Virus record (IMG/VR): IMGVR_UViG_3300046171_000034 | Location: 1 to 31,039 of that record | Direction: 5' to 3' (one strand) | Length of the DNA stretch: 31,039 nt | From: a virus | In this document: in pieces, positions 4,416 to 28,330 of the stretch | How positions within the stretch are numbered: the stretch's first letter is position 1 | How the letters are laid out: every line of letters starts with the position of its first letter | Made by a program: the position numbers and the translations under genes | Notes under the pieces: generated by a model | What the model was told of the DNA's origin: nothing | Seen by the model: the letters and a program-made list of their open reading frames with translations, nothing else | Database searches by the model: none

Positions 4416-6072
4416 TCTCAGCGATCTCCTGTGTTCGACAGGCAACCTGGATCTCGTCGTGTATCCAGCCGACAATGTATGCATCGTCGTTATGTTGCCT
4501 GATGATTTCTTGATAAGTCAGTTCCACCCACTTCTTGCAGATGATGGCCCCAGCGCTCTGTAGAAGCTGACTGAGTAGCTTATGCTCTGACCTGATGAAT
4601 AGTTTCCTACCATCGAGACCAATCAAGTGGCCCCTCTTTTCGTGCGCTGCTTTAAGTCTTCGGAGCAGTGTTCCAAACGCTGGGATATTCTTGTTGAAGT
4701 TCTCCTTCAGCTGCTTGCCGTGCTTTGCGCCTTTGCCAGCGATCTTGCCAATGAGCATGTCGCCACCGCCGTACATGGTTGCATAAATAAACGTCTTAGC
4801 CTGGTCCCTAGTAGCCAACCCAGCCGCCTTCTGATTGTGCGTATGGATGTCACCTTCCAGGATCTGCTTGGCGTATTCACCACCGTCATTCAGGTAGTGG
4901 GCAAGACAACGAAGCTCCAGACCACTAAGGTCACTGCCAGTGAGCCACCAGCCCTCTGGCACCGTGAATAACTCACGACACTCTTGACCATACGGGAGTG
5001 ATGTCTTTGGCACCTGGGCTAGGTTTGGACCCCTGTGACTCGCTCGTCCACTCACAGTCCCACCAGACACAATTGTGTGCCTGATCTTACCGAAGCTATC
5101 GACCTTCTTTAGCCAAGCCTGTGGACCCTCAGCTAACTGACCGACACGCTTGTCAATCATGAAGTACTCAGCCAGCTTCTTAGCCTCAGGATACGGGAGT
5201 TTACCTAAGACCGTCTCGTCAATCTGAGCGTGACCAGTGCCTGTAAACTTAGTTGGCTTCCAGGCATACTTCTGACGCAAGCAGAACTCAATGTGACGGC
5301 GGCTACTTGGGTTGAAGACAACCTGTTTACGCTTGGTAAACGGGACGCCTTCCTCGTAGCCTAGGGTCTTGTTGTTCCGCTTTGGAATGAACTCTTCAGT
5401 CGTCTCCCAGGGTGGGAACAGTTCGTCTAGACCCTGGCGTATTTGCTCACGCTTCTGCGCAAGTAATGCATATACCTCAGATGCTTTGCGTTCATCGAAG
5501 GTCCATCCGTTGTTACCAATCTCAAAGCAGATCTGTGCTAACGAATGTTCTAACGTGATTGACTGCTCACTGAACCCACGTGACATACAGTGCTCATATA
5601 GAGCCTTAGTCACCTGGGTATCCTGGACACAGTAGTCCAGCATCTCTTGGCTGTAGTTCTCCCAGCCGCCACTGTAGTCATCTTTAAAGTCACCTAAGCG
5701 TAGACCCCAAGCCTTTAGACTGTAAGACCCACTCATCCTCTTTGGGAAACTATCGGGATCCTTGGCGTGGCGTATGCTATCTTTCTCTGCCAGGTTGGCC
5801 TCGACCAGACGTGACAGTACAAGTGTATCCGTGACCTTACCTAAGATCTCAAATCCTGGATACACCTTCTGGAGTGCGGGGATGTCATACGCAATAATGT
5901 TATGACCAATGACCTCTTCAGCATTCATCAGTGTAAACATTGCTGCCTTGATCTCGTCGGGTCCGTAGGTTTGCACCTCGTCGGTCTCAACGTGTCTCAA
6001 CGCAATACAGTGAATCTTGCTAATGGTATCTAGTAGTCCGTCGCTCTCCAGGTCCCAAACCCAACGGGTCAC
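4303..6072 (-). CDS. DNA polymerase, family A (T7 gp5-like)
   Basis: 589-aa replicative polymerase with an N-terminal 3'-5' proofreading domain and a polymerase domain. Exo motifs: DLE at 7-9, NIIAYD ending at D63, and YCVQD ending at D151. Polymerase motifs: A at SDLSGLELR (D381, E386), B at RDQAKTFIYATMYG (K426, Y434), and C at WIHDE (H538, D539, E540). It is about 115 residues shorter than T7 polymerase, and an obvious thioredoxin-binding insertion is not apparent in the thumb region. All catalytic residues are intact. The start overlaps the MazG-like gene by 4 bases (ATGA-type coupling). Confidence 0.96.
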   Translation of the reverse strand: MTRWVWDLESDGLLDTISKIHCIALRHVETDEVQTYGPDEIKAAMFTLMNAEEVIGHNIIAYDIPALQKVYPGFEILGKVTDTLVLSRLVEANLAEKDSIRHAKDPDSFPKRMSGSYSLKAWGLRLGDFKDDYSGGWENYSQEMLDYCVQDTQVTKALYEHCMSRGFSEQSITLEHSLAQICFEIGNNGWTFDERKASEVYALLAQKREQIRQGLDELFPPWETTEEFIPKRNNKTLGYEEGVPFTKRKQVVFNPSSRRHIEFCLRQKYAWKPTKFTGTGHAQIDETVLGKLPYPEAKKLAEYFMIDKRVGQLAEGPQAWLKKVDSFGKIRHTIVSGGTVSGRASHRGPNLAQVPKTSLPYGQECRELFTVPEGWWLTGSDLSGLELRCLAHYLNDGGEYAKQILEGDIHTHNQKAAGLATRDQAKTFIYATMYGGGDMLIGKIAGKGAKHGKQLKENFNKNIPAFGTLLRRLKAAHEKRGHLIGLDGRKLFIRSEHKLLSQLLQSAGAIICKKWVELTYQEIIRQHNDDAYIVGWIHDEIQVACRTQEIAENVGDIARRMAQETGRYFETKIPITAEHTVGRTWADTH

Positions 6073-6434
6073 CTGTGGTCTCCAGATCCACTTAGCGTGT
6101 TACGTTTGGCACGTAGATGTAGCTTCTCTAGGTTCATGTGCGCGACCTCATTTAGACTGACGCCCAGGTCACGTGATAGGGCTGCAATTTGCCATAGGCA
6201 GTCGCCTAGCTCGAAGATGATGTCTGCACGTTGTGCGTCTGTCAGCTTCTCTGTGCCATCGAACTTCAAGCCCTTGTCGCGGATTAGCTTGGAGATCTTA
6301 CCAGCGACCTCTCCAGCTTCCTCATTCAGTGCTAGTGCAGGGTAGATTACCTTCCACTTATAGATGGCATACTGGGCCATGTCGGCCTGGTAGTCGTTCA
6401 TAGTTAACGGTTGTAAATAGCGTTCAGAAACCAT
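6069..6434 (-). CDS. MazG-like nucleotide pyrophosphohydrolase
   Basis: 121-aa all-helical NTP pyrophosphatase-like protein. Diagnostic residues are NEEAGEVAGKISK (the EExxE metal site) and, further on, FELGDCLWQIAALSRDLG (the ExxD site). Such proteins hydrolyse nucleoside triphosphates to monophosphates and are common in marine phages, where roles in salvaging host nucleotides or lowering (p)ppGpp have been proposed. The start at 6434 has AGGAGAG at good spacing; the gene overlaps the preceding ORF by 11 bases and the DNA polymerase start by 4. Confidence 0.85.
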   Translation of the reverse strand: MVSERYLQPLTMNDYQADMAQYAIYKWKVIYPALALNEEAGEVAGKISKLIRDKGLKFDGTEKLTDAQRADIIFELGDCLWQIAALSRDLGVSLNEVAHMNLEKLHLRAKRNTLSGSGDHR

Positions 6435-6648
6435 TGTTGCTCTCCTGTGGTCTCAATTTAGGTCTGATTGACTTGCTTGGTTTGATGCGCTGACAGTAGA
6501 CCGCAGCGTCTCGATAGGTCTCGTAAAGAGGCTGATGGATCTCCATAGCCTGTTCACATTGCTTGTATGTGGGGAACAGTATCTGTGCTGACAGATAGCC
6601 GTACTGAGCACTGGTGTACTCAATGAATAAAACGGTAAACCACTGCAT
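6424..6648 (-). CDS. Hypothetical protein, 74 aa
   Basis: Short ORF between primase-helicase and the MazG-like gene. The N-terminal third is hydrophobic and aromatic (MQWFTVLFIEYTSAQYGYLS) but too polar for a confident membrane helix. The rest includes two Cys residues and a basic C-terminus. The ATG lies only two bases after the primase-helicase stop, which supports translation within the operon. No family recognised. Confidence 0.55.
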   Translation of the reverse strand: MQWFTVLFIEYTSAQYGYLSAQILFPTYKQCEQAMEIHQPLYETYRDAAVYCQRIKPSKSIRPKLRPQESNNGF

Positions 6649-6650
6649 GA

Positions 6651-8300
6651 CTAGAACGGCACGTCTTCAAACTCGTTGAAGTCATTGGTCTCAGACAGAC
6701 GTCCTGTTTCCAGGTCGTACCTGAGGACACCAGCTGCGCCAACCTCGCCCGTGTGCCTGTTCTTCAAGACAACGATGTTACGCTTGCCTGAGGTTGGATC
6801 CTCAGCATCGACGTTGAGACCAATACAGGTGTCTGCCAGCTGCGCTATCGCATGTGACCCACGCAGCTGGCTTAGGCTTACCTGAGCACCCCCTTCGTGT
6901 CCCTTGTCCCCTTGTGGGCGACGTAGGTGGGACACTAAGATTAGGCAGATGCCCAGCGCCTGTACCTCGACACGCAGCCTGGTCATGATGTCATCAACCA
7001 ACCTACGCTCATCGTTGACACCTGAGGTCAGACCAGAGATCAGGATACTGATGTGGTCCAGGCAGATGACCTGACACCCTAGAGCCTTGTTCATGTAGCG
7101 GATGCGATTGACAATGACGTCTAGATCCGTAGATCCAAAGTGATCGAACAGATAGAACTCACCAGCCTTGCGCATGTCATCAAACGCACTGACGATGTCC
7201 TCTTCACACGTGTCCTCGACAGAGACACTGATGTTCTTGTTCATGTGCAGACCAACCAGGCCCTGGGCGGTACGTTTGGTGCTCTCTTCGAGCATCATCA
7301 TGCCAATTGGAAACCCTGATTGCTGCACGTGATACATCAGTTCTCTGACGAAGGTAGACTTGCCGACCCCCGAGCCAGCGGCAATGGTGACCAGTGATCC
7401 CAGCCGTAAGCCCTTCGTCAAATCGTTGAGCTTGCTGTAAGGATAACTAATGGGGGAGACAGCTTCCCCCACACCAATGACCTCTCGGAGATCGGCAGCT
7501 GCCACGATCCCATCAGGCCGATGAAGCTTGGCCTGGAAGATCGCTTGTATGACTGTCTGTGCATCTCCTTTCACAAGCGCCTCATTGGCGTCCTTGTGTT
7601 CCCCTAGGTTTGCGATCTTGCACAAACCGATGGGCAAAGCCTCTGCACATTCAATGGCAGCTTCACGACCAGGTTCATCATTGTCGAACATGAGGACAAC
7701 AGATTGGAAGCTGGTCACATAATCGTAGTTACTGAGTAGGGCCTTCTTTGCAGCCTTAGCCCCATTAGGCAGACTGACAGTAGGCCACTTATGGTTCTGC
7801 ATCTGTGAGACTGACATAGCGTCTATCTCACCTTCGCAGATCACCAGGATCTTACCGTTGGACCACAAGTGTGACCCAAACAGCGTCATGTCTCGTCCGT
7901 TACCTACAACGGAAAAGTCTTTATCTTTAGTCCGCACCTTCTGTGCGACTGGGCGTCCCTTCGTGTCTCGATAGGTTGCCAATTGGACGGTCTGACCTTT
8001 GTACTTACCAACAGTGTAGCCAAACTTGCGGCAAGTCTCCTCGGTCAGCTTGCGCGTCCGTAGGGCCTGGAAGGTACCATTGATTAGGTTGGGATCATTA
8101 GGCCGCTCTGGGACGTGTGTAGGGGCCTCTCCGTCGCCGCCAGCCCATGCTCCGCAGCCGAAGCAATAGACGTGCCCGTCGCTGTACATCGCACCATTGT
8201 CCCGTGATCCACATTGGTCACACGGGACGTGCTGTACGAACTCGCTCTCAACTTGTTCAATTGCTTGCATGGTGTTACGCCGCCGCCTTTGCATTGACAT
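6651..8300 (-). CDS. DNA primase-helicase (T7 gp4-like)
   Basis: 549-aa bifunctional replication protein that makes RNA primers and unwinds the fork. The N-terminus has a zinc-binding domain with CDQC (C27, C30) and CFGC (C46, C49). Next is a TOPRIM primase fold with the acidic segment ICEGEIDAMS and the DND motif in LMFDNDEPGRE. The C-terminal RecA-like helicase has Walker A AAGSGVGKST, Walker B near QVICLDHI and a late motif SQLRGSHAIAQLAD. The length matches T7 gp4 (566 aa). The start could be 8300 (AGGA four bases upstream) or ATG 8270; the first 10 residues are Arg-rich and uncertain. Confidence 0.95.
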   Translation of the reverse strand: MSMQRRRRNTMQAIEQVESEFVQHVPCDQCGSRDNGAMYSDGHVYCFGCGAWAGGDGEAPTHVPERPNDPNLINGTFQALRTRKLTEETCRKFGYTVGKYKGQTVQLATYRDTKGRPVAQKVRTKDKDFSVVGNGRDMTLFGSHLWSNGKILVICEGEIDAMSVSQMQNHKWPTVSLPNGAKAAKKALLSNYDYVTSFQSVVLMFDNDEPGREAAIECAEALPIGLCKIANLGEHKDANEALVKGDAQTVIQAIFQAKLHRPDGIVAAADLREVIGVGEAVSPISYPYSKLNDLTKGLRLGSLVTIAAGSGVGKSTFVRELMYHVQQSGFPIGMMMLEESTKRTAQGLVGLHMNKNISVSVEDTCEEDIVSAFDDMRKAGEFYLFDHFGSTDLDVIVNRIRYMNKALGCQVICLDHISILISGLTSGVNDERRLVDDIMTRLRVEVQALGICLILVSHLRRPQGDKGHEGGAQVSLSQLRGSHAIAQLADTCIGLNVDAEDPTSGKRNIVVLKNRHTGEVGAAGVLRYDLETGRLSETNDFNEFEDVPF

Positions 8301-10011: not shown

Positions 10012-12470
10012 TTAGCTAAAGCAATATTCGCTGTCTAAGACTGCTCTGACGTCTAGATCTCCTTTTTCTGGAACTGGTGCTAAATCCATGTCTGGGTTAG
10101 CCAATCGGTTACGACACTCGATCTCGAAGTTGCCTAAGACACAGTTGTCTTCATACATGTCGACAATCGCGTGACGAATGTTGTGGTAGAATGCCCAGGT
10201 ATCTGCGGCGTTAGTCCCAAAGCTGTCGTGGATCATAAAGAAGTCCTCGATGCCCTGGTCTAGCCCGTGGCAAATTGCCAGCTGCATGTGGGCAGCATCG
10301 AGCGAGTGCACGAAGTTAGGCGCAACGCCAGCCCGTGCTTTCCTGGTGTCATACTTCAGCCCAATCCCATGTAGTGTGACACGGGTCTTGCTCATCAGCT
10401 TGGCCTCTCGGTCATACAGGAAGATCTTCACTCGTTTGACATCAGGCTTAGTGTACCTTTGGATGGCTGGGAAACCACTAGGCGTTGTCCAACGAACTGA
10501 CCTACCTTCACGTGCTAATGCATCAGCATATGACTGTAAGAAGGCCATACCTTGGGCAACACTAGAGATGACCTTTTGCACTGCCTGGTAGTTGAACTTA
10601 GCTAGGAACCGTGCGTTGGTCTCTTGCTCTCTATAGTCACCGAAAGGATGTTCAACTATGGTTCCATAGTTCACGTCTTTCTGTAGCGGCTGCATAAGAT
10701 CCTCAATGATCTGATCGCCAAACCCACGTTCGATGCTGGAATATCCATAGGTCATTACATTTCGTTTGACGGTAGATCTATTGATGCCAAACTCTAGCCA
10801 CTTCTGTGCTTCCTCAGATCCATCTTCAGTCAGATCCTGGATCACCTGGTCAGCGACAGTCTGGTAGACGTCCTGACATTTGTCATCAGGCAGTAGGTTG
10901 ACCATGTGACCATCCTTAGATGACCGCAGTGCCAGGGCATAGTGCTGTACGCCACTGTTAGTCCCATCCAGGGAGATCGGAAGGTGACACACTGGGTCAT
11001 CACTGTAGTAAGCAAAGACAGCTGCCAGAAACTGGAACGGTTTGTCAGCTTGGATCCAGAGATCTAGAGTTCGACTTGGGTTGTCGTTAACTAGACGTAA
11101 CCACTCGTCGTTATCCAAGACCCACTGGATCCTGTCGTCTAGGCTCTTCTTCGAGATCTTCTCAAAGTCACCTACGTTTGCCAGGTGGATCGCAAGCCAT
11201 CCTTTGTCTTCATCTGCCACAGGTTTACCCCTGGCAAACTCGAACAGTGCTTTCACATGGTCATCCCTGTGATAGTTAAAGTGTGACACGGGATACATTC
11301 GGCCCCTGAAGTCGAAGTTCCAAGGTAAGTAGAACTGTTCGAACTCAGACATCTTGTAGGCTGTCTTTAGGTCATTATGCATGACAACCAGATTAGCTAC
11401 TGACTCACGTCTCTTCACGTGCCACTGCTTTTGGTCACGCTTGAGCTGACGCTGGGTCTTCTCAGGTAGACTGTCGAATTCGTCAGGTAACTTAGGAAAC
11501 TCTGGTGGCTCTAGTTCTGGGAACTTACCGAAACGTACCTTCTCACGACGCAATAGTCCATGACCTCTAGGACACGCTTGTTGATCCTCAGAGGGGTCGC
11601 CTGGAGTGCGTTAAGTGCTTTGACATACAGAGGCTCTGGGTTCTTCTCAAAGTCTCTGTCGACGGCTCTCCGCTGCTCTGAGGTAGCCTTACGGATCAGA
11701 GGTACCAAAGCTGACAACATGTCATCCTGGTAAGCTCCAGAATCGAAGGCAGTCCAAGGCTTCGGTGGTATGACTAGAGGGCCATACATAGGTTCTGCCC
11801 AGGATGCATCGAACATACGACGATCCATCAGATCCTTGGCCTCATCAGTTAACGTAATGTGTCTATGTGTCTTTAGGTTTTCTTCTGTCGTTGATATCTC
11901 GAATATGTCTGTAGCCTCTAAGACTGAAGACAACAGTGGAGATGCCACATGTACCTTCTTACTACGGCTCCACTTCTCGAACTGAAAGCCAGCTTTAGTG
12001 GCTATGATACGTGCAGCCTTCATTCTGTAGCGTTCACTGGAATGATCCTTGGTGACCTGGGACACCAGTCTCTTGAAGAGGCTACTGTCGTATGTCTTTA
12101 GATCTTCAGCCCAGACTTCAAGTTCTAGCCTAGATCCTATGGCTGAAAGACACCCAGCTAAGGTGTAATCTTTAAGCACACTCTCGTAACAACAGTTCAA
12201 CACTATGTAGGCTAAGGTGTCTGGGTCTTGGTCTACAAGTTCTTCATACCACTCGCTCTTCTTACCCTTGCCACTATAGAAACGCTCTGCGTCTTTCTCT
12301 AGTCGATCCTTGATGTCTTTAGACACCTTAGGTAGGGCCTCGGTGATGATCTGATGTGGTACTTCGCGTTGGCTGGGGGATAGTTTCTCCTGTCTTCGTT
12401 GGTATCTCTTCTGACCCTCTTGGATCATTTGCTGCTCTAGTTCTATCTGTAAGTCAGTGACTTTTGTCAT
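10012..12470 (-). CDS. Single-subunit DNA-dependent RNA polymerase (T7-type), interrupted by one frame break
   Basis: It transcribes phage genes from phage-specific promoters. Two overlapping ORFs together make one enzyme of about 825 aa (T7: 883). The N-terminal part is 12470-11511, ending after RINKRVLEV; the C-terminal part is 11553-10012. The second part carries NFDFRGRMYP, the catalytic SLDGTNSGVQH (Asp), RSTVKRNVMTYGYSS (Lys, Tyr), APNFVHSLDAAH and IHDSFGT (second Asp). The frames join if one base is added near 11554, at a TATTGC with no standard slippery site, so a base-call deletion is likeliest. A genuine mutation or split enzyme is possible. ATG 12470 has GGGAG upstream and a phage promoter-like motif 24 bases further up. 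Confidence 0.93.
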
Positions 12471-12561: not shown

Positions 12562-12578
12562 GGGGCCTATTTGGCCCC
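12562..12578 (-). terminator. GC-rich hairpin at integrase stop codon
   Basis: GGGGCC/GGCCCC with a 5-base AAATA loop in minus-strand sense, followed by TTT. The integrase TAG lies within it. The short U-run makes it a weak intrinsic terminator, separating integrase from RNA polymerase transcription. Confidence 0.5.
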
Positions 12579-13397
12579 CATCAGCTTGGCTATTTCCAGC
12601 CGTGTTTCAGGTGTCTGATGGACATATTTGGCAGTCGTTTGAAGACTACGATGCCCTAATTGTTGAGCTACGGTAACAGTAGGTAGCTTTAGCCCATTAG
12701 CCATGCGTGTTGCCGCAGTGTGACGTAGGATGTGAAAGACAAACTCTTTGTCACCCTTAGCGATCTGGTAACGCGCTTCGTCCCACACATTGTAAAACTT
12801 GCGGTGGCTGTAGTGTTTGCCTGGGTTAAACTCTAGTGCCATCAGGGCAGCAAAGGTTGACCCAGCGCACACTACGTCACGGTCGTCACCGTTCTTGGTG
12901 TCAGTCAGGTGCACGGTGCATAGGTCGCCTTCGACAGTCACGTTGTCTGGAGTGATCGATAGGATCTCGCCATGACGCATGCCTGTATTCAAGGCTATGG
13001 TACACATGTGACGCATCCACCAGTACTTGCCGTCTTTGTAAGACTTCAAGAATGCGTCTAGTTGTTCGGACTCTTCTTCAGACAGGTAACGTACACGATT
13101 CGTTCTCACCTTAGCGAACTTTATCTTGGGTAGTCTGTCGATCTCTTCGAGATCCAGGGCATGCTTTAGGATCGCACTAATAGCCGCCTTGTAGTGGTTG
13201 ACTGTGTTCTCGGATAGACCAACGTCCAACAGGTGTAGACTGAAGGCATGGATGTCACGGGCTGTGACCTCTGAGATGTCCTTGAAGCCAATACTCTTAA
13301 ACTCGCCAAAGCGATGCATCTTGGCACGGCTCTCGTCTAAGTGCTTGTCGCGCCAAATGTTAGGGCCTTCGGTGTTTACAAAATCAATCAAGTTCAT
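12567..13397 (-). CDS. int: Tyrosine recombinase (phage integrase)
   Basis: 276-aa site-specific recombinase that would integrate the phage at a tRNA gene. The N-terminal helical SAM-like domain (about residues 1-95) binds arm sites. The catalytic domain has R141 (in GMRHGE), K168 region, H222-x-x-R225 (HILRHTAA), H249 (QQLGHRS) and nucleophile Y258 (TAKYVHQ). All catalytic residues are present. ATG 13397 has GGAG upstream. It lies about 500 bp from the tRNA-derived attP candidate at 13900-13960, the usual arrangement in temperate T7-like cyanophages and pelagiphages. Confidence 0.95.
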   Translation of the reverse strand: MNLIDFVNTEGPNIWRDKHLDESRAKMHRFGEFKSIGFKDISEVTARDIHAFSLHLLDVGLSENTVNHYKAAISAILKHALDLEEIDRLPKIKFAKVRTNRVRYLSEEESEQLDAFLKSYKDGKYWWMRHMCTIALNTGMRHGEILSITPDNVTVEGDLCTVHLTDTKNGDDRDVVCAGSTFAALMALEFNPGKHYSHRKFYNVWDEARYQIAKGDKEFVFHILRHTAATRMANGLKLPTVTVAQQLGHRSLQTTAKYVHQTPETRLEIAKLMGAK

Positions 13398-16284: not shown

Positions 16285-19200
16285 TTAGGCTCCTTCTAAT
16301 TGTGCCAAACGCGCTTCTAATGCGTCACACTTTGCTGATAATTCTTGGACTGCTTTAACTAGGATTGGATATGAACGCACATAATCCGCCTCTAGTCTGC
16401 TAGGGTTGTTGTCATTGACCAAGCGAGTGCGCGACCCTGACCCATGATCCATCTCAACTTCACGCAATTCCTGAGCAATGAAACCCATGTCTGGTTTTGC
16501 GCCATACGAACCATCGCGGCGGTTCCATGTGAACTTGACAGGACGCATGTCGTTGATGAAGTCGAGGCCGTAAGGCAAATCCTCAATCGCCGTTTTGTCG
16601 CGTTCGTCAGATAGGCTTGAGATCGTTTGGACGTTACAGCGGAGCGAACTTATGTTGGCATCGCCTAGCGTGATTTCGTTACTGACCGTAGTGCTACTGG
16701 TTAAAGCATTAGCACCAATGAGGGTGTTATTATCGCCACTCTCAAGATCAACTGTGCCATTTCCAGCGTTGTGGCCTACTAATGTATTGTTAGAACCAGT
16801 ATTCACATAATATCCCGCAAGAGAACCCAACGCTACGTTGTTTCCCCCAGTGGTCAATGATCTCAACGCATAATTTCCAAAGCCATTGTTATAAGAACCC
16901 GCTGTCGTAGCCGTACCCAGCCCAGCTTGAAAGCCCATAAAGGTATTATAACTTGACGTTGTAACATTATAGCCTGCCTCACAGCCCATAAAGGTGTTGT
17001 ATCCACCAGTTGTGATAGTAGCCCCGCTAAACGATCCGACAGTTGTGTTCAGGGTTCCTGTAGTCAGGTCATATAGTGCTTTGTGACCGATGCCGACACT
17101 GTAGTTACTTGATCCACCGTTACGTCCAGCCTCATTACCCACAAAAGTGCAGTAATCACCGCCATCCATGTCATAGCCAGCCAATATCCCAACACATACG
17201 TTATATTGTGACGCGCTATTAGCACTTAGGTGCGCTGAATGGCCTATCGCGGTGGTGTAAGATGTCCCCTTTGCTTGGGAACCTATGACCACAGAGTTCA
17301 TACAATTAGCATCAATAACATCTGCTGAGTAACCGATAAGTACGTTCTGATCGCCGCCATATAACTGAGAACCCGCACCATAACCTACGGCTGTATTATA
17401 GTATGGATAATAGGTCGTGGATCGGCTTAATGCATTCGCCCCTATTCCTGTGCTATAGTGGTGACTTCCGTCTGACACACTATTGTAACCTACAGACGTT
17501 GCGTAATCTCCGTAGTTATCATTCTGAGCGTTATAACCTATAGCGGTTTGGTAATCCTTGCTGCTTGAGTTGTAGTTACCAGCCAGTGAGCCAACGTATG
17601 TCCCGCCAGTTAGATATTGGCCGCGACCAGATGCATAGCCTACTGCAGTTGAGTTATTATCGGTTGCATTGTCCAGCATTGTTGCGCCCCCGACGGCAGT
17701 GCAGAAAGAAGCCGTCGTTACAGCTTGCCCAGCACGTTCCCCTACGAAAGCATTGTAATTACCAGTTGTTAAGTTAACACCAGCATCAGTCCCAACCGCC
17801 GTGTTTCTAAAACCCGTCGTTACCGCACTTAAAGTTTGATACCCCAACGCGGTGTTGTAAGAGCCAGTGTTATTTTGTGCATCTAGCGAATAAGTACCGA
17901 TTGCAGTGTTATATGCACCTTCATTGAAGAAGCCAGCCCGATAACCTACGGCAGTTATATCGCTATTGCCGTATGCATATTGACCAGCCGCTACACCGAC
18001 AAAAGTACATGCAGTTTCCGTTGTTAGGCTTTGACCAGCGTAACTACCAACTAGCACATGTGAACCACCAGTAGTCGCGGCATAACCAGCGTTTTCCCCG
18101 ATTGCGACTGTTACCCCTGCCGTTGTTGCTACAGGAAGGGCATTTTTTCCGATGGCGACATTTCTAGTGCCTGTCGTGATACTACCTAAAGTATTCTCCC
18201 CGATTGGAATATTGTCCTTAGAAGCAGACGCTGGATCATCAGGCCACTTATTTTGCCAAAGCATCACAGAGCCAGTTTGATCTGGGATCGTTACGGTTTG
18301 GTCAGCGGTGGGGTCAGTGACGGTTACTGTGGTTTCAAAGTCGTCATCTGTGGCACCTTCAAAGATCAGATCATATGTGTTCTTTAGCTGTATGTCGCTT
18401 TGAAACTGTACAGTGTAATCGCCTGATCTTATTAACAGGCTTCCGCCGCTTGCGTTACCTTGAGATTGTATATACGACCCCGATGGTATGGCGACAGGTT
18501 GGCCTTGGCCAACTGCGGATAGTGATAGATAGCCTGCATAACCAACACCATTAGGGGCTTCGGTCACTGAAATAGTTTCATTCGCCGTAAGTTCGCCATC
18601 AATATCAACTTGACCGCTAAACGTTCCACCCGCAAAAGTCGGGCTATCGGTTGTTGCCAAGCCCTGATCTATAGCTTTTACAGATGCTTCAGAAGTAAGT
18701 TCGCTGTCCATAAGCGCACCAGCCGCTGTGACATTCGCCGTATCCGTTACATCAGCACTCGCCTCAATACCGTCTAATTTACTGTGGTCTGCATCAGTAA
18801 ATGCATTAGTGTCGCTATTGCTTTCATATGCTGCCTTAATCTCAGCCGCCGTCTGATCGGCAGTAGCGTTTGCTTCGATGCCATCCAGCTTAGACTTGTC
18901 AGTAGATGACATCAGACCATCAGAAGAGGTCGTCGCTACTGTTATATCTACAGTTGACCACTGATAGTCCGTACCGTTCCACTCCAGGTATTGACCATTT
19001 GATGCACCAGAAGTGTTCAGGTGTGTGTCTACATCACTGTCTGTATACCCTGCGGGTACAGTAGCCCAATCGTAGTCCGTACCGTCCCACTTGAGGTATT
19101 CACCAGTTGCTGCGGTGGATGTGTTCAGGTGGCTGTCAACTAGTGGTTCCACATTGGCTGCGTCAGTGACATCGGCTGACGCCTCGATCCCATCTAGTTT

Positions 19201-20280
19201 ACTGTGGTCTGCATCAGTAAATGCATTAGTGTCGCTATTGCTTTCGTAGGCTGCCTTTATTTCAGACGCAGTTTGATCCGCTGTCGCGTTAGCCTCCACA
19301 CCATCCAACTTTGATTTGTCAGAGGATGACATAAGACCATCAGAAGAGGTCGTCGCTACTGTAGTAATCGCAGATGTGACCCAATCAGTACCATTGTAAA
19401 CTAGAAGTTCGTTATCGGTTGTGTTGAAGTATAGGTCGCCCTCGTTCACAGCGTCACCGTTAGCATCGACAGTCGGGTCGGATGCATGTGCGCCCAGGTA
19501 AATACCCTCGAAGTCTGCCAGTGCAGCTAACGCACTGTCTCGGGCACTTTCCGCAGCTGTCTGAGCGGATGATGCACCGGTAGCACTTGTTGCTGCGTTA
19601 GACGCCTCATTGCTTGCGGTAGTGGCACTTGAAGCTGCGTTGGACGCCTGGGTTGATGCTGTAGTTGCACTTGTTGCTGCATTAGTAGCACTTGTTGCTG
19701 CGTTAGACGCCTGGGTCGATGCTGTGGTTGCACTTGCAGCTGCGTTAGTTTCACTGGTAGCTGCGGCAGTTGCACTGTCAGCCGCATTAGATGCATGAGT
19801 AGATGCTGTTGATGCACTGGTAGAAGCGTTAGTCGCCTGAGTAGCCGCAGTGGTAGCACTTGAAGATGCATTTGTTGCACTGGCAGCTGCGGCAGTTGCA
19901 CTTGTTGATGCCTCAGATGCCTTGGTGGTTGCTGTAGTTGCACTTGTAGCTGCGGCAGTTGCACTTGTTGATGCCTCAGATGCCTTGGTGGTTGCTGTAG
20001 TTGCACTTGTAGCTGCGGCAGTTGCACTAGCAGCCGCCTCATCGGCTTTTGTACTTGCAGTGTCGGCACTGTCGGACGCCTCAGAGGCTTTGGTTGTCGC
20101 TGTGGCGGCTACAGTTGTTACTGACGCAGCTGCGGCCTCAGCATTGGTTTCAGCTGTCTCTGCGGCTGTCTGAGCTTCCTGGGCTGCATCACGGGCTGCT
20201 TCGGCTGCGCTCTTTGCGCCCTCGATAGCGTCCTGTTCGTTATTAGTTAAACCAGATCCCGAGTAGAATGATGACGACAT
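16285..20280 (-). CDS. Giant tail fibre with S74 intramolecular chaperone domain
   Basis: 1331-aa fibre, likely the host receptor-binding protein. Residues about 15-265 are Ala/Thr/Ser-rich heptad-like repeats (for example ATTATTKASEAS) expected to form a trimeric coiled coil. Residues about 300-560 hold two copies of a tail-fibre repeat (LMSS.DKSKLDG.EANATA). Residues about 690-1210 are many short repeats of the type NTAIG..AG, as in YadA-like beta-roll heads. The last 108 residues are a Peptidase_S74 chaperone beginning SDERDKTAIED (S1224, K1229 as likely dyad) and ending in a coiled coil; such domains trimerise the fibre then cut themselves off. Start 20280 has GGAGA upstream. Confidence 0.92.
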   Translation of the reverse strand: MSSSFYSGSGLTNNEQDAIEGAKSAAEAARDAAQEAQTAAETAETNAEAAAASVTTVAATATTKASEASDSADTASTKADEAAASATAAATSATTATTKASEASTSATAAATSATTATTKASEASTSATAAAASATNASSSATTAATQATNASTSASTASTHASNAADSATAAATSETNAAASATTASTQASNAATSATNAATSATTASTQASNAASSATTASNEASNAATSATGASSAQTAAESARDSALAALADFEGIYLGAHASDPTVDANGDAVNEGDLYFNTTDNELLVYNGTDWVTSAITTVATTSSDGLMSSSDKSKLDGVEANATADQTASEIKAAYESNSDTNAFTDADHSKLDGIEASADVTDAANVEPLVDSHLNTSTAATGEYLKWDGTDYDWATVPAGYTDSDVDTHLNTSGASNGQYLEWNGTDYQWSTVDITVATTSSDGLMSSTDKSKLDGIEANATADQTAAEIKAAYESNSDTNAFTDADHSKLDGIEASADVTDTANVTAAGALMDSELTSEASVKAIDQGLATTDSPTFAGGTFSGQVDIDGELTANETISVTEAPNGVGYAGYLSLSAVGQGQPVAIPSGSYIQSQGNASGGSLLIRSGDYTVQFQSDIQLKNTYDLIFEGATDDDFETTVTVTDPTADQTVTIPDQTGSVMLWQNKWPDDPASASKDNIPIGENTLGSITTGTRNVAIGKNALPVATTAGVTVAIGENAGYAATTGGSHVLVGSYAGQSLTTETACTFVGVAAGQYAYGNSDITAVGYRAGFFNEGAYNTAIGTYSLDAQNNTGSYNTALGYQTLSAVTTGFRNTAVGTDAGVNLTTGNYNAFVGERAGQAVTTASFCTAVGGATMLDNATDNNSTAVGYASGRGQYLTGGTYVGSLAGNYNSSSKDYQTAIGYNAQNDNYGDYATSVGYNSVSDGSHHYSTGIGANALSRSTTYYPYYNTAVGYGAGSQLYGGDQNVLIGYSADVIDANCMNSVVIGSQAKGTSYTTAIGHSAHLSANSASQYNVCVGILAGYDMDGGDYCTFVGNEAGRNGGSSNYSVGIGHKALYDLTTGTLNTTVGSFSGATITTGGYNTFMGCEAGYNVTTSSYNTFMGFQAGLGTATTAGSYNNGFGNYALRSLTTGGNNVALGSLAGYYVNTGSNNTLVGHNAGNGTVDLESGDNNTLIGANALTSSTTVSNEITLGDANISSLRCNVQTISSLSDERDKTAIEDLPYGLDFINDMRPVKFTWNRRDGSYGAKPDMGFIAQELREVEMDHGSGSRTRLVNDNNPSRLEADYVRSYPILVKAVQELSAKCDALEARLAQLEGA
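18778..19245. repeat. 420-bp-spaced direct repeats within the fibre gene
   Basis: The 48-bp segment 18778-18825 recurs exactly at 19198-19245, and the segment around 18911-18942 recurs at 19331-19362 with the same 420-bp (140-codon) offset. These are two copies of one fibre module. High DNA identity suggests recent duplication or gene conversion, and could allow module loss or gain by recombination. Confidence 0.75.
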
Positions 20281-21789: not shown

Positions 21790-22915
21790 TTATGAAAGAC
21801 CAGTGATCATACCACCGTCAGCATAGTTCATATGCTTCAATGAGTATTCGCCGACGATAAAGTGACGATCAGAGTCACCATTCTTCGACAATAGTGTACG
21901 TGAGAACGGACGTAGTACACATGAACGCCACATTGACGGATCAATTAGGAATGCGTGTGTAGTCAACTGGTGGCGGTTTAGGACCACTTTGTATTCGCCG
22001 TATGGGCTACACGGCTCTTCGCCTAAGGTCGTTAATCTTAGACCGTCTTTCGACTGCTCATGCTTTCACATGAGATGAGACTATATCATCACCGCTGTTC
22101 GCAGTGCCTGGCGCTTCCACTCACTTGAGTGTACTTCCTTGCGGAATAGTCGTTGCACCTTCCCCTCTCGGGGCTTGGCTCAGGATTACCATATCTCTCG
22201 ACTTAGGCTTTCCCTGAGTTCACCAGGTTTAATGTACGCTAGCCACTTCAACGTACAGGTCAATCACGTTGACCAAGTTGCGACCCTGTTGGATCTCACG
22301 GTTACGACCAGATGCCGCTGCAAAGTCAGCAACGATCTGAGCATCCGCTGGTTTGATCATTAGAACTGATGGATCAGAACCGTTGTTGAAGCAGTCTTCA
22401 CCAAGCTCTAGGACTTTCGCCTCTGTTAGAGCGTCAGTTGCGTTGGCACCAGCGTCGACAGATGTTGAGATCTGCTGTGTTGCTGAGTCCATCTCACGCG
22501 CTACTGAGCTTGAGCCAGTTGCTTTAGCATTGTCGACACCAACATAAGCACGTTCTAGGTCGCGCTTAATTTCTTTAAGGGCCTTACCAAGCTGATATGC
22601 GGTTTCTTTCGCTCTACCATAAGTTGCAATCGCATCAGATGTTGCACTGACCTGAAAAGCCTTATGTAGGATTTGCGTGTTCTGGGTACGCTCTACAGCA
22701 TCTGTAAGAGTTGCCATAGTCGCGTCGGCCCCTTCCACCTGTGCGTTATCCGCCGCAGACGCAAGTGAGTCTTCTAACCAACTGAAAGTACGAGCAGAAA
22801 CCTTTTCTGAACGCATCATTGTGAACATCGGCGTGTCTGTTGGTGTGATATCCGAAATGATATCTGAAACGTCTTCTTTCTTACCGACCTGGTCGTAAGT
22901 AGTATATGTAGCCAT
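21790..22915 (-). CDS. Major capsid protein (SU10-type), interrupted by a group I intron
   Basis: HK97-fold shell protein. Exon 1 is 22915-22251 and exon 2 is 22009-21790; joined they give 885 bases, 294 codons plus stop, all in frame. The N-terminus (TYDQVGKKEDVSDIISDITP, then EDSLASAADNAQVEG and KTFQVSATSDAI-like AFQVSATSDAI) matches the SU10 major head protein family. The splice junction rebuilds IDLYV-SPYGEYKVVLNR, the conserved C-terminal strand of the family. Without splicing, translation would stop seven codons or so into the intron, giving a 228-aa protein lacking the conserved C-terminus. AAGGATG precedes ATG 22915. Confidence 0.9.
22010..22250 (-). ncRNA. Group I self-splicing intron in the capsid gene, 241 nt
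   Basis: Read on the minus strand. P1: the exon end TGTACGT pairs with intron GCGTACA, leaving the required U.G wobble at the 5' splice site. P10: intron GGCTA, directly before that guide, pairs with the 3' exon start TAGCC. The intron ends in G (position 22010). Core: CTCAGGGAAAGCCTAA, then AATCCTGAGCCAAGCC (P4-P5 region), GGTGCAACGACTAT (P7 5' strand) and GATATAGTC (P7 3' strand), with GACTAT/ATAGTC pairing. These motifs resemble IC3-type introns of bacterial tRNA genes. There is no ORF, so no homing endonuclease. Exact boundaries follow from P1, P10 and the reading frame. Confidence 0.95.
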
Positions 22916-24363: not shown

Positions 24364-26395
24364 TTGGTGAAGCGATTGCGCGGACGTCGTCTGCGGTTCT
24401 CGCAATCTCTAGTTCGGCTTTGTCGACAAACTGTTTGTGTTCCAGTTGTGCCTCTTTCAGATCCATACTGTCTGACTGAATTGCAAAGCCTTGTTGTGCC
24501 TTCATTTGCTCCAGCTGTAGTTTCATCTGGGCAACTTGTGCATCCATCTGTGCCTTCATCTCGGCAACCGCTGTCTGACGCTCTTGAAGTTCCATTTGCT
24601 TCTGTTGCATCTGCATTGCCATTTCCTGTGCTGGATCTGGCTGTTCTGGTGGCTGCTCTTGTGGGGCTGTCAGATAGTCTTTGACGTTCTTGATGCCGTT
24701 CTGTTCTAGAACATGTGACATCAGCTTGTACTGGTTCTCGGGCGTATACATCGTTGACAATGTTGGGTCCTGAGACATCAGGCCGTGTAGCACCAGGTAC
24801 TTCTGTGCTTCCTGTTCTTGTTCACCGTAGCCTAGGTGCATCTCGACAGTGACATCACGTTTAGATCCCCAGTCACCTGGGTTGACCGCGACGTAGTCAC
24901 CAGCAATCTCAACGATCTTAGCTTGTGGTTCATTCTCGACGACCAGTTGATAGATCAGCTGATACAGGGGTTTCAGGAAGTTGTTCGCAAAGTTGCGCGC
25001 AATGATCTTCTGACGTTGCTGTGACATAGTCGCCAGCTGTTCAACCATAGCCGCTGAGTTTTGCTTACTGATAGCATCCTTGTTCAGACCCTGAGATAGA
25101 CGTGAGACGCCTGTGGTGTCCTCTTTGTCTTCGTCCAGCATCTGGATCGTCTGGAAGATAAACGGGTTCAACGGTGCCTGTACCATCGGACTGATGGCGT
25201 CTGGGCGTGACACGTTTACGATACCACCGACACGGTTGTCGATCAGTTCACGTGGGTTTGTTAGGCCACCCTTAACCACAGTGTAACGTGGGTTGTTCGT
25301 GATCATCGCGTGATCCAGGATCGAGCGTGTCAGAACTGTACGTGCAGTCTGGATAGGGACAACCTTGGACCCGAAGTTGGAACCAAAGAACGAGTGTGGG
25401 ATCGGTAGTGGTACAAAGGCACAAAACGGTTTGTATGTGCACTTCTCTTTGTGCAGCACGACGTTCCCAGCTTTGATTACTTTGTACGTCTCAGCGATTC
25501 CAGAGCCATCGAGATCGATGTCGATATATAGCTCATAAACAGTGATACTTCTAACTTGATCCTGGAAACCTTCAGCGTTGAAGCCACGGTCTTGACCAAT
25601 CTCTTCATGACGTGCCAGGACCTCTGGATCGGTTTCCATTTCGACGTCTTCATGATCGCCAATTTTAGCAATGAGCTTTTCGTCATATCCAGCCTCTCGT
25701 AGTTCTGAGATTGTCATTGTCGTACGATGACCCAGGAAACCAACGTCTTCTAAAGACTTGGCTTGTGGTTCGATGACAAACTGTTCAGGTGCAATTGCCT
25801 CGATGACCACCTGGCTGGTGTCCTGGAAGACACGTAGGTCACCAGAGTATAGACCAAGCTCGTCTTGCTCGACTTCCTCGATTTCTACGTTGTCCTGGGC
25901 AACAATAGCGTCAAACTCTTCCTCAGTTAGATCCTGGATTGGCTCTAGGTAGCTGTCCTCACGCTCGTCCCAGTAGACTTTACATAGACCAGCACGTGCA
26001 ATGAGACCGTCGTGGATGACAGACTGCATAACCTCGAACAGGTTGTTCTGACGGTTTGCCACGTAGTCACAGTAGGCTGTAGCGATCTCAGCGATACGCA
26101 CGTCCTCTCCAGTCTGCGCAGCGAAACGCACGGTCTTGTAGCCTGTGCTGAATGTCTCTAGCAGTGCAGCCTTCATGCTTTCGACGGCATCATAGACATC
26201 CATAGAGACATACTTGGAGTTACCGTCGTGCGCTGGGCGTGGGAGCGTAGCGTTGTAAAAGTCGATTACCTTACGGCGTTCCCTACTGATCTGGCTGTCG
26301 TAATACCCGATAGATCTACGGATGTTATCATCGAGGATCGTGACGAGTTTATCGTCGTCCACCGCTTTGTAGTCTTTTTTATCCATAGTGATCAT
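24356..26395 (-). CDS. Portal protein
   Basis: 679-aa dodecameric gate through which DNA enters and leaves the head. Early motifs: RRKVIDFYNATLPRP, SMDVYDAVESMKAALLETFS. Core: PLPIPHSFFGSNFGSKVVPI and RTVLTRSILDHAMITNNPRY, characteristic of long portals of the P22/SU10 kind rather than the shorter T7 connector. The C-terminus (from about residue 570) is Gln/Met-rich coiled coil, probably forming the barrel inside the head. The start overlaps the terminase stop by four bases (ATGA). Confidence 0.9.
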   Translation of the reverse strand: MITMDKKDYKAVDDDKLVTILDDNIRRSIGYYDSQISRERRKVIDFYNATLPRPAHDGNSKYVSMDVYDAVESMKAALLETFSTGYKTVRFAAQTGEDVRIAEIATAYCDYVANRQNNLFEVMQSVIHDGLIARAGLCKVYWDEREDSYLEPIQDLTEEEFDAIVAQDNVEIEEVEQDELGLYSGDLRVFQDTSQVVIEAIAPEQFVIEPQAKSLEDVGFLGHRTTMTISELREAGYDEKLIAKIGDHEDVEMETDPEVLARHEEIGQDRGFNAEGFQDQVRSITVYELYIDIDLDGSGIAETYKVIKAGNVVLHKEKCTYKPFCAFVPLPIPHSFFGSNFGSKVVPIQTARTVLTRSILDHAMITNNPRYTVVKGGLTNPRELIDNRVGGIVNVSRPDAISPMVQAPLNPFIFQTIQMLDEDKEDTTGVSRLSQGLNKDAISKQNSAAMVEQLATMSQQRQKIIARNFANNFLKPLYQLIYQLVVENEPQAKIVEIAGDYVAVNPGDWGSKRDVTVEMHLGYGEQEQEAQKYLVLHGLMSQDPTLSTMYTPENQYKLMSHVLEQNGIKNVKDYLTAPQEQPPEQPDPAQEMAMQMQQKQMELQERQTAVAEMKAQMDAQVAQMKLQLEQMKAQQGFAIQSDSMDLKEAQLEHKQFVDKAELEIARTADDVRAIASPTG

Positions 26396-27971
26396 ACCAT
26401 TTCAATGTAATAGTCATCTGCACTCTCTATCGGCTCCCAGGCACCTTCGTGCACGTGATTGGCTAATGCCAACGACATGACACAGTCGTCGTAGCATCCT
26501 GGTTCAGCTTCCATAGATCCGCTCTCAGTCACGACATATGTGAGCATTTCGCGGATCGTTGTTTTGTCATTGAGTTCTATCTCGTTCTCACGGACAGACG
26601 CTCGTAGCTCGTCAATGATTAGAGGCTTGGTTTTTGCTGTCGTACTAAAGCCCAACTTGATGGTTTCTTTGTCCGTCAGCTTGTCGACCTGAACCTCAGT
26701 AAAGAAGTTCGGGTAGGCCATATCTTTAGCCAGCCTGGTGCACGTCAAAAGGCCGTGACCGTTGTTCTCAACTATGATGTACGCATCGTTGAAGAAGGTA
26801 CCCAGGTGATACAACACAGTTGCATAGTAGTCTGGGTGCACATGGCCTCTCCAGGTTGCGACCTGGCGTTTCTTACTGTCGAGGACCTGGGCAACACTGT
26901 AGTCACCACCTCGGACGCCCATAGCGACGTCGGCACCGATGACATACTGTTCACCAGGGTCATGACGACGGTACATCGTCAGTTCGCCTCGGACGTTGTT
27001 TAGCCAGTCTTCACCTTCGAGTGCTAGACGCTCCTGTACGTCCTGTGTAGTGCCCATAGCCTCTTGTAGCTGCTCTGGGTTAAACACGGGTCTACCTGTC
27101 GTCAGGAAGGCTTCCTCAGGCTCTGAGGGGTACTCCTGTTTGAACAGGTCGAGGCCGTTCTGTGCAACCTTACGACGACGGAACATAAGCTGCTCGTCAT
27201 CGAGGTCATACTTGGACGCAAGCTCTTCTTCGTCTGGGGTACGCTCGAAGTTCTCTGGGACCGTCTCTCGATACTCTGGGTCTGCAAACCAAGGGATGAA
27301 CACAGGCACGTAGCCGTTAGTTCCCTCGACTGCACCCTTCCAGAGATCATAGAAGATCCCGCTGACACCATTGGCTGTGCTCTCGACAAATATAGCAGTT
27401 CCTGGCGCATTGGGGACAGCTTGGGTCAGCGAGTTCCAGTTGTCGGCGGCGGTGGTCTTAGACCAGAACGCAAGCTCCGACGCATGAACGTGTGTCAGGG
27501 TTTCACCCCGACCAATAGCTTCACCACCAGCTGTCGCAACGACATAACTTGAGTCTAGGACGTCAAACGACAGTTCGCGGCGGGATGAATACTTAGTGTG
27601 TGGCTTCAGGATCTCAGGGCAGTTCTCATGATACCTTTGGTCATGTCGAACAGCGCACGTGTTGAGTCACTGTGGTGGGTAATCACCAGGGCCTTTCGCA
27701 GCTTTGCGCTGGGAGACGCTGAAGTACAGGTAGCCGCCAACGTAAGGTCGACAGGCCCTGTTGTCGAGCCTTCAAGATGATCACTCGGACTTTGCCTTCT
27801 GTCTCTAGTTGCTTAGTGACAGCGTCGTTGAGGATCTCTTGGGCTGGTTTCAATTTGAGGGGCGCAATGTCACCCGACTTAGTGCGGATCTTCAGTGCGC
27901 CCTTTCGCGTAGAAGCTGAAGTCAGTATACAGACGCTTACGGACCTCAACCAGCTGCTCCTTGGTAGCCAT
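26392..27971 (-). CDS. terL: Terminase large subunit, frame broken in N-terminal third
   Basis: DNA-packaging motor: ATPase plus headful nuclease. Readable motifs in order: VIILKARQQGLST (Walker A), THVHASELAFW (Walker B/catalytic Glu), VESTANGVSG (coupling motif), then nuclease acids in GADVAMGVRGGDYS, IIVENNGHG and CYDDCVMSLALANH. From ATG 27971 the frame is broken by about four single-base indels near 27900, 27743, 27691 and 27631, several in short homopolymers. From about 27630 to the stop it is open. With corrections the product is about 525 aa, a normal length. Sequence error is the likely cause. It ends with a 4-base overlap with portal. Confidence 0.9.
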
Positions 27972-27978
27972 CGTCGGC

Positions 27979-28330
27979 TTAGTCTTGGTCGTCACCGTCA
28001 TTGGTATCTAGCAGTGAGCTTAGGAACTCCTCAGCTTTACCGACAGTGATCTCAGACTTGGCGACAGGTTTGACCTTGGTGAAGTCCAGGATCAACTTAG
28101 CTGCTTGAAGACGATCACGGTTGTGTACAGGGTGTACGCATGATTTCCACTGCGGTTTCGAGTGCTTCCTCTGCGCGTGGGTCTTCGATGTCATACTCTT
28201 TCTTCATGATACTTACCGCCCTTTTGGCGTCCTCTTTTGCCTTGTCGACAATGGCTTTGATGGTTTCCTTACTGTGACCGTCTGGAACGCCGAGGGGTCT
28301 TCCCCCCTTGTTCTTTCGGTTCTTCAGCAT
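27979..28330 (-). CDS. terS: Terminase small subunit candidate, one frame break
   Basis: Reads MLKNRKNKGGRPLGVPDGHS then a helical region (EEALETAVEIMR) and, after one indel near 28135, DRLQAAKLILDFTKVKPVAKSEITVGKAEEF. This is the usual form of DNA-recognition small terminases in marine podoviruses, and it lies directly before the large subunit (7-base gap). In the same frame upstream of ATG 28330 the sequence LWHYSIKTPEGRAKFRE also looks coding. The true gene may therefore start at 28469 or even be fused with the upstream ORF, with further indels hiding this. Confidence 0.7.

Follow-up and report, generated by a model that had tools for sequence, protein, structure and literature searches.

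The locus described here, a major capsid gene of a phage that is interrupted by 241 nucleotides, raises the question of how such an insert moves and persists without encoding an endonuclease. The gene lies in the window, that is, the whole stretch of 31,039 nucleotides that was analysed (IMG/VR record IMGVR_UViG_3300046171_000034), which is inferred from its gene content to belong to a podovirus. The explanation that we consider likely, no splicing having been observed, is that a self-splicing intron sits in the capsid gene and belongs to an endonuclease-free lineage, which persists by conversion at the same site and by rare jumps to new sites.

A group I intron in the major capsid gene

The sequence-only reading had proposed that positions 22010-22250 are a 241-nt intron in a major capsid gene of the SU10 type (PF17236), and this held to the base, on the minus strand. 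Exon 1 (22251..22915, minus strand) has 665 nt, that is 221 codons plus 2 nt, and ends with a U at 22251. It is followed by the intron (22010..22250, minus strand), which is supported by a match to the Rfam family RF00028, by spliced alignment and by covariation, and whose terminal (omega) G at 22010 is seen in the sequence and in the spliced alignment. Exon 2 (21790..22009, minus strand) has 220 nt including the TAA stop codon. As had been claimed, excision of 22250..22010 restores an exact frame of 885 nt (665 + 220), or 294 codons plus stop. The score of the product against PF17236 rises from 177.1 bits unspliced to 266.2 bits spliced, and the spliced protein spans positions 2-291 of the 292 of the profile. 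Read without excision, the frame that starts at 22915 enters the intron and meets a stop codon ending 22 nt into it, which leaves 228 codons. The boundaries 22250..22010 were also chosen independently by a spliced protein-to-DNA alignment, in which a U at the exon end and a G at the intron end were demanded and P1 was ignored. The sequence-only reading had put the terminal G at 22010 without this program.

The covariance-model check that had been proposed gave a strong match. In an Rfam scan of the whole window, RF00028 matched 22280-22057 on the minus strand over the full length of the model, with 94 bits (gathering score 50) and an E value of 3.3e-23. It was the single RF00028 match at the gathering score, and no further intron was found in the window at that score, without a scan below the threshold.

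All structural elements that had been named (P1 with its U.G, P10, the P7 complementarity, the conserved core blocks and the terminal G) are present, and all coordinates given here are on the minus strand. P1 consists of 7 pairs between the 5' exon strand UGUACGU (22251..22257) and the internal guide sequence GCGUACA (22233..22239), including the closing U.G at the splice site, and is supported by the sequence and by the P1 pairing score. The adjacent intron bases GGCUA (22240..22244) pair with UAGCC of exon 2 (22005..22009) to form P10. From the alignment and covariation of the family, the P7 strands are GACUA (22147..22151) and UAGUC (22079..22083), and those of P3 are CCUGG (22223..22227) and CCAGG (22107..22111). 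P7 is the guanosine-binding helix of group I introns; in an alignment of 37 introns of the family all of its cells are paired (100%) and one of its five pairs varies, and all five pairs of P3 are changed on both sides. In the same alignment, the window intron has the conserved core P3-P8 with the P3/P7 pseudoknot. Between P7 and P3 lie two covarying hairpins (helices 7 and 8). Extra P7.1/P7.2 hairpins at this place mark the group IA subgroup, and the rule is met here, without the use of a subgroup model.

The nearest IMG/VR relatives, found by a search with the spliced protein (best 80 of 323 loci), have capsid proteins up to 97% identical to that of the window, encoded by an uninterrupted gene. 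In four of them (L002-L005) the junction reads CTGTACGT-GTCTCC without a gap, compared to CTGTACGT-(intron)-TAGCCC in the window. The reading would have been refuted by the absence of a covariance match or by relatives that naturally contain the intervening codons; neither is the case, as these four lack those codons. No close cultured phage was found: capsid identity stayed below 60% across the 305 records of annotated phages in which a relative occurs, and a portal search (303 records) likewise gave none, although the annotated-phage search may omit records that closely resemble the window.

The insert is thus a group I intron in a SU10-type major capsid gene, with boundaries exact to the base, whereas its self-splicing, which has not been observed, is inferred. 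By analogy with the family, UGUACGU would be held by the guide sequence in the folded transcript; attack by a guanosine after the exon-end U would follow, and then attack by the freed exon after the terminal G. The joined mRNA would give a capsid protein of 294 residues, and the unspliced mRNA a truncated protein of 228 residues.

The intron family in related capsid genes

What could not be seen with this sequence alone is a many-site family of introns in the same gene. By spliced alignment, 45 of 223 distinct capsid loci carry introns, 61 in all, at 12 sites of the gene (nucleotides 19, 56, 75, 152, 175, 259, 319, 338, 347, 665, 672 and 673). These introns are 240-308 nt long, which leaves none of them room for an ordinary homing endonuclease gene. 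One gene carries four of them (L094), another three (L121), and eleven other loci carry two each. At site 665, that of the window, seven other loci also have an intron. The 223 loci, 271 before the removal of duplicates, are those at least 50% identical to the window capsid; a further 16 loci below 50% were excluded from the counts, several of the long gaps there resembling alignment noise.

The sample was partly selected for introns. A search of IMG/VR with an intron-core pattern returned at least 119 stretches, 37 with a capsid relative and 82 without a match to the window capsid protein; several of the capsid genes found in this way were broken at more than one point. Further loci came from two more protein searches of 80 loci each. 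In the three protein searches that were not intron-selected, carriers amounted to 9/80, 1/80 and 25/80, with one locus shared by two of the lists; these counts are affected by the ranking, which works against interrupted genes. Among the nearest-relative records, RF00028 matched in 9 of 80 (7/40 and 2/40), elsewhere in the capsid gene than at the window site.

The placement of the introns was compared with Rfam. In 40 loci, all 55 introns from spliced alignment overlap an Rfam match and none of the 55 Rfam matches lies elsewhere. A scan of whole records was positive for 40/40 carriers (38 of the family plus phage C72C1 and locus L148) and gave 56 RF00028 matches, which equals the number of capsid introns placed; 49 of the 56 were checked by position and 7 by count. 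Similarly, in the 80 nearest-relative records (1,125,634 bases) all 9 matches are the capsid introns. No RF00028 match was therefore seen outside the capsid gene in the scanned records of this phage group, several of which span 31-42 kb, most being short and capsid-centred. As far as can be seen from records that are mostly fragments, confinement to the capsid gene holds for this group only. That the lineage is confined to capsid genes generally was rejected, as 82 of the 119 core-pattern stretches lack a match to the window capsid protein and the relatives found by blastn are located in other phages, in genes for polymerase, terminase and other products. A preference for the most conserved positions of the protein was also not supported (mean entropy 0.91 near the sites vs 0.90 overall, P = 0.52).

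Covariation was assessed on 37 of the 61 introns, near-copies more than 96% alike and the introns at sites 338 and 347 being omitted. A 54-pair structure including the P3/P7 pseudoknot has 95.5% of its cells paired and 42 pairs changed on both sides. Its covariation score is 0.523, whereas shuffles gave 0.185 and slid structures no more than 0.100, and none of 500 shuffles scored as high. As this structure was drawn on the window intron, the measure of paired cells favours it; the structure proposed by the fold program itself has 47 pairs, 38 of them changed on both sides. The pairing of introns with their own exons was compared with 3096 swapped-flank pairs. A P1 score of at least 3 is reached by 59/61 introns vs 23.8% of the swapped pairs, and a score of at least 5 by 32/61 vs 1.2%. 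No boundary shifts were allowed in these figures, which supersede an earlier, biased version that had shifted the observed flanks only, by up to 9 nt. The boundaries at sites 338 and 347, with one intron each, fail the test (scores below 3). For P10, a score of at least 4 was found in 23/61 introns vs 1.5% of the swapped pairs, and this scoring shows little or no P10 at sites 19, 75 and 673. In 60/61 introns an in-frame stop codon is reached in the first 30 nt, compared to 48% in shuffles.

Two side observations concern particular loci. In L150 the introns at sites 75 and 175 have the same target (GCCT), the same guide (GGGC) and an identity of 82.5%. Exon skipping might be favoured by this, with a loss of 100 nt that would break the frame. 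Further sites, some with longer gaps, are suggested by spliced alignment in L146, L140, L168, L138 and other capsid genes of about 30% identity to that of the window, but the boundaries are unreliable at that distance.

Descriptions of phage group I introns mostly concern replication, nucleotide-metabolism and terminase genes, often together with an endonuclease; examples are given in PMC11878797 and PMC7344957. The statement that few capsid cases are known was fair, yet precedents exist. LittleE, of the Cluster J mycobacteriophages (PMC3706429), has what is probably a group I intron in its major capsid gene, with the same exon-end U and intron-end G, and its splicing was demonstrated by RT-PCR and protein sequencing; however, that intron is ~819 bp long, contains an endonuclease-like reading frame and is described for one site, and no many-site capsid family was described. 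A capsid intron of Tuc2009 is mentioned in the introduction of the same paper. The tail-gene intron of BAKA and Optimus (also PMC3706429) resembles the window intron in being short (265 bp), endonuclease-free and located in a structural gene, and was confirmed by RT-PCR, but it is in a different gene and at one site. In the Bastillevirinae (PMC11878797), two or three group I introns occur per phage gene, with splicing shown in vitro and in vivo. These introns differ in that they average 802 nt and lie in genes for polymerase, terminase and nucleotide metabolism, and the main text does not use the word 'capsid'; Twort is grouped with them here as a comparison, on the basis of a title in the reference list of that paper. 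In phage ICP1 (PMC10448857) the tape-measure gene, likewise a structural one, contains three introns, but HNH endonucleases lie within one or two of them and the gene is not a capsid gene. No capsid intron was found in the relevant sections of PMC7344957 and PMC10580990, nor any report of several introns in one phage capsid gene in the open-access literature searched (titles and abstract openings, with few subscription papers or preprints). Capsid introns as such are thus already known in phages (LittleE, Tuc2009), and the multi-site, endonuclease-free form appears to be new.

A relative in a named phage is that of C72C1 (OQ984150.1, L210), whose capsid is of the same broad type and whose intron matches RF00028 and is 84% identical to the window intron over 89% of the length of the latter; it is located, however, at the equivalent of site 319, in a gene whose protein is only ~31% identical to that of the window. 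This group I intron is not annotated: in the region 5665-6866 the record has two CDS named 'major head protein', and between them three small CDS of the opposite strand. Standard annotation can thus fragment intron-bearing capsid genes, as in this gene deposited as two CDS.

Inferred spread within and between sites

With a dozen sites, up to four introns per capsid gene and presence or absence between alleles 98-99% identical, the family is a natural data set for the mobility of group I introns without an endonuclease, and allows this mobility to be tested. The flanks of the introns were compared in 27 pairs of a carrier and its nearest non-carrier of at least 90% identity (37 before pairs repeating a site and partner were dropped). 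Of the 455 positions up to 9 nt from the site, 95 differ, 43/225 on the 5' side and 52/230 on the 3' side, compared to control means of 3.8% and 4.0% and maxima of 7.3% and 10.5%, respectively, in 200 draws. By 12-15 nt most of the excess has disappeared, with raised values in two farther bins (10.7% at 21-30 nt on the 5' side and 7.7% at 15-21 nt on the 3' side), and 74 of the 77 changed codons are synonymous. Carrier L126 and intron-less L211, for instance, are 98.3% identical overall and 80% in the 30-nt flank; the corresponding values are 99.2% and 77% for L352 and L296, and 98.2% and 77% for L339 and L313. The patch is not universal, being absent in the pair L070/L046 and slight in L156/L290 at site 75.

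At site 665, serine 223 is encoded by AGY in 8/8 carriers, whereas among the non-carriers AGY makes up 38 of 129 serine codons. On a FastTree tree of the capsids, the fewest changes that explain the distribution are 7 for the 8 carriers at site 665, 7 for the 7 at site 56 and 4 for the 4 at site 672. Later adaptation of the exons to P1 and P10 probably adds to the patch, although at sites 75, 319 and 672 it reaches beyond the bases that pair. We read the patch and the tree as signs of repeated recent gain, in which DNA gene conversion would have copied short tracts. Spread at the same site would thus occur between phages, with exon patches of about 10 nt copied on each side, by an enzyme that is unknown.

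As to movement between sites, the intron tree largely follows the site of insertion (12 label changes, with a minimum of 9 and a shuffled mean of 24.7; bootstrap unsettled), and jumps to new sites must therefore be rare. The introns of sites 75, 175 and 672, twelve of which are in the tree, form one clade with support 100/99; inside it those of 75 and 672 stand apart from 175 (97/92) and 672 lies within 75 (84/79), the bootstrap again being unsettled. GCCT precedes the intron in 23 of the 24 introns at these three sites, the exception being L172 with ACCT. The upstream bases are CGCCT at both 75 and 672, and the downstream bases differ among the three sites. The introns of sites 152 and 259 have a pairwise identity of 0.79. 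The window intron is nearest to other introns of site 665 (up to 88%) and then to those of site 319 (80%), and the site-665 introns do not form one clade (3 changes).

Overall, GCCT stands before the intron at 5 of the 12 sites, compared to 1.0% of the 4-mers that end in T (binomial 7e-8, assuming independent sites and ignoring exon adaptation). There is only weak support for the idea that introns at different sites generally share a guide target, the Mantel correlations between target sharing and core similarity being r 0.31 (p 0.03) for 3 nt, 0.22 (p 0.09) for 4 nt and 0.27 (p 0.04) for 6 nt. The clade of sites 75, 175 and 672, with its 4-5 shared nucleotides upstream, suggests that rare jumps to new sites occur; the pattern is shown for this one supported clade and the mechanism is inferred. 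It is indicative of ectopic spread and not of its chemistry, because an intron landing by any route survives only where P1 forms. Related introns at heterologous sites that share 4-8 nt of 5' exon are also known in fungal rDNA (PMC1299323), there in eukaryote rRNA genes and here in a protein-coding gene of phages.

Alternative explanations and other features of the window

The usual criterion of a mobile intron, that it encodes a homing endonuclease, is not met by the window intron. The claim that it lacks such a gene held, as 241 nt leave no room for a usual homing endonuclease, and the longest stop-free stretch across all 61 introns has 90 codons. With positive controls, no GIY-YIG match was found in 45 carrier records or the window, L161 being outside that search, and HNH_3 and HNH were likewise without a match in 46 records, which comprise 44 carriers of the family (all but L161) and two more distant ones. 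Similarly, PHROGs gave no homing endonuclease among 29 reading frames of the window, not all open frames being covered. The gene content of the window includes an endonuclease family that is likely a resolvase, a Gp2.5-like annealing protein, a single-subunit RNA polymerase, a DNA polymerase and a tyrosine integrase.

The alternative that survives best is collaborative (trans) homing, in which intron-less capsid genes would be cut by a free-standing endonuclease encoded outside the intron and would receive the intron, together with short flanks, during repair. It does not contradict the main explanation and would supply its missing enzyme; it agrees with the short flank patches, which resemble gene conversion, and is a described route for phage introns that lack an endonuclease (PMC3984707, PMC2988022; both also treat reverse splicing). 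Against it stands the absence of any GIY-YIG, HNH_3, HNH or PHROGs homing endonuclease match in the records and frames scanned, mostly fragments, and on balance we lean slightly against it. An endonuclease acting in trans remains possible nevertheless, as most records are fragments and endonuclease classes other than GIY-YIG, HNH_3 and HNH were not covered.

A bolder, rather unlikely reading is also conceivable, in which RNA-guided reverse splicing inserts the intron at 4-nt guide targets such as GCCU in the capsid transcript or DNA, recombination fixes the allele and short-patch gene conversion spreads it. If this reading were true, the presumed high expression of the capsid gene would explain why all introns in these records are there.

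That RNA-level reverse splicing alone accounts for all movement, within and between sites, appears unlikely. Related introns do occur at sites with 4-5 shared nucleotides upstream (the 75/175/672 clade, and sites 152 and 259 with their identity of 0.79), and the same reasoning has been applied to fungal rDNA introns (PMC1299323). However, reverse splicing carries no exon sequence, yet same-site carriers show an exon patch against close non-carriers and all 8 carriers at site 665 have AGY at serine 223; it additionally requires reverse transcription.

That the introns are ancestral, were inherited vertically and have repeatedly been lost is very improbable. The grouping of introns by site and the target kept in some intron-less alleles speak for it. 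On the other hand, at sites 665, 56 and 672 the tree needs nearly as many changes as there are carriers, the marked flanks are often missing from the nearest non-carriers, and an intron as close as that of C72C1 lies at another site in a gene with so divergent a capsid protein.

Finally, an assembly artefact, or a broken insert that does not splice, can be virtually ruled out: frameshift-like breaks do occur in the terminase gene of the window and probably in its RNA polymerase gene, but the insert is structured, 241 nt long and in exact frame on both sides, it recurs at the same site in seven other loci, and the covariation of the family is strong.

The two breaks of the large terminase gene (26392-28007, minus strand) are near 27904 and 27744. 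They were rejected as introns, as the aligned pieces of an intact relative abut without extra sequence; they are frameshift-like and probably assembly indels. The single-subunit RNA polymerase gene (10012-12470, minus strand) is split into the overlapping frames 10012-11553 and 11511-12470, probably by a single-base indel, no relative having been aligned. Between this gene and the lysis genes lies a tyrosine integrase-like gene (12567-13397, minus strand), and the phage may therefore be temperate. A tail-fibre-like protein of 1331 residues (16285-20280, minus strand) has a long, repetitive N-terminal part rich in Ala, Ser and Thr and matches several tail fibre and tail spike families.
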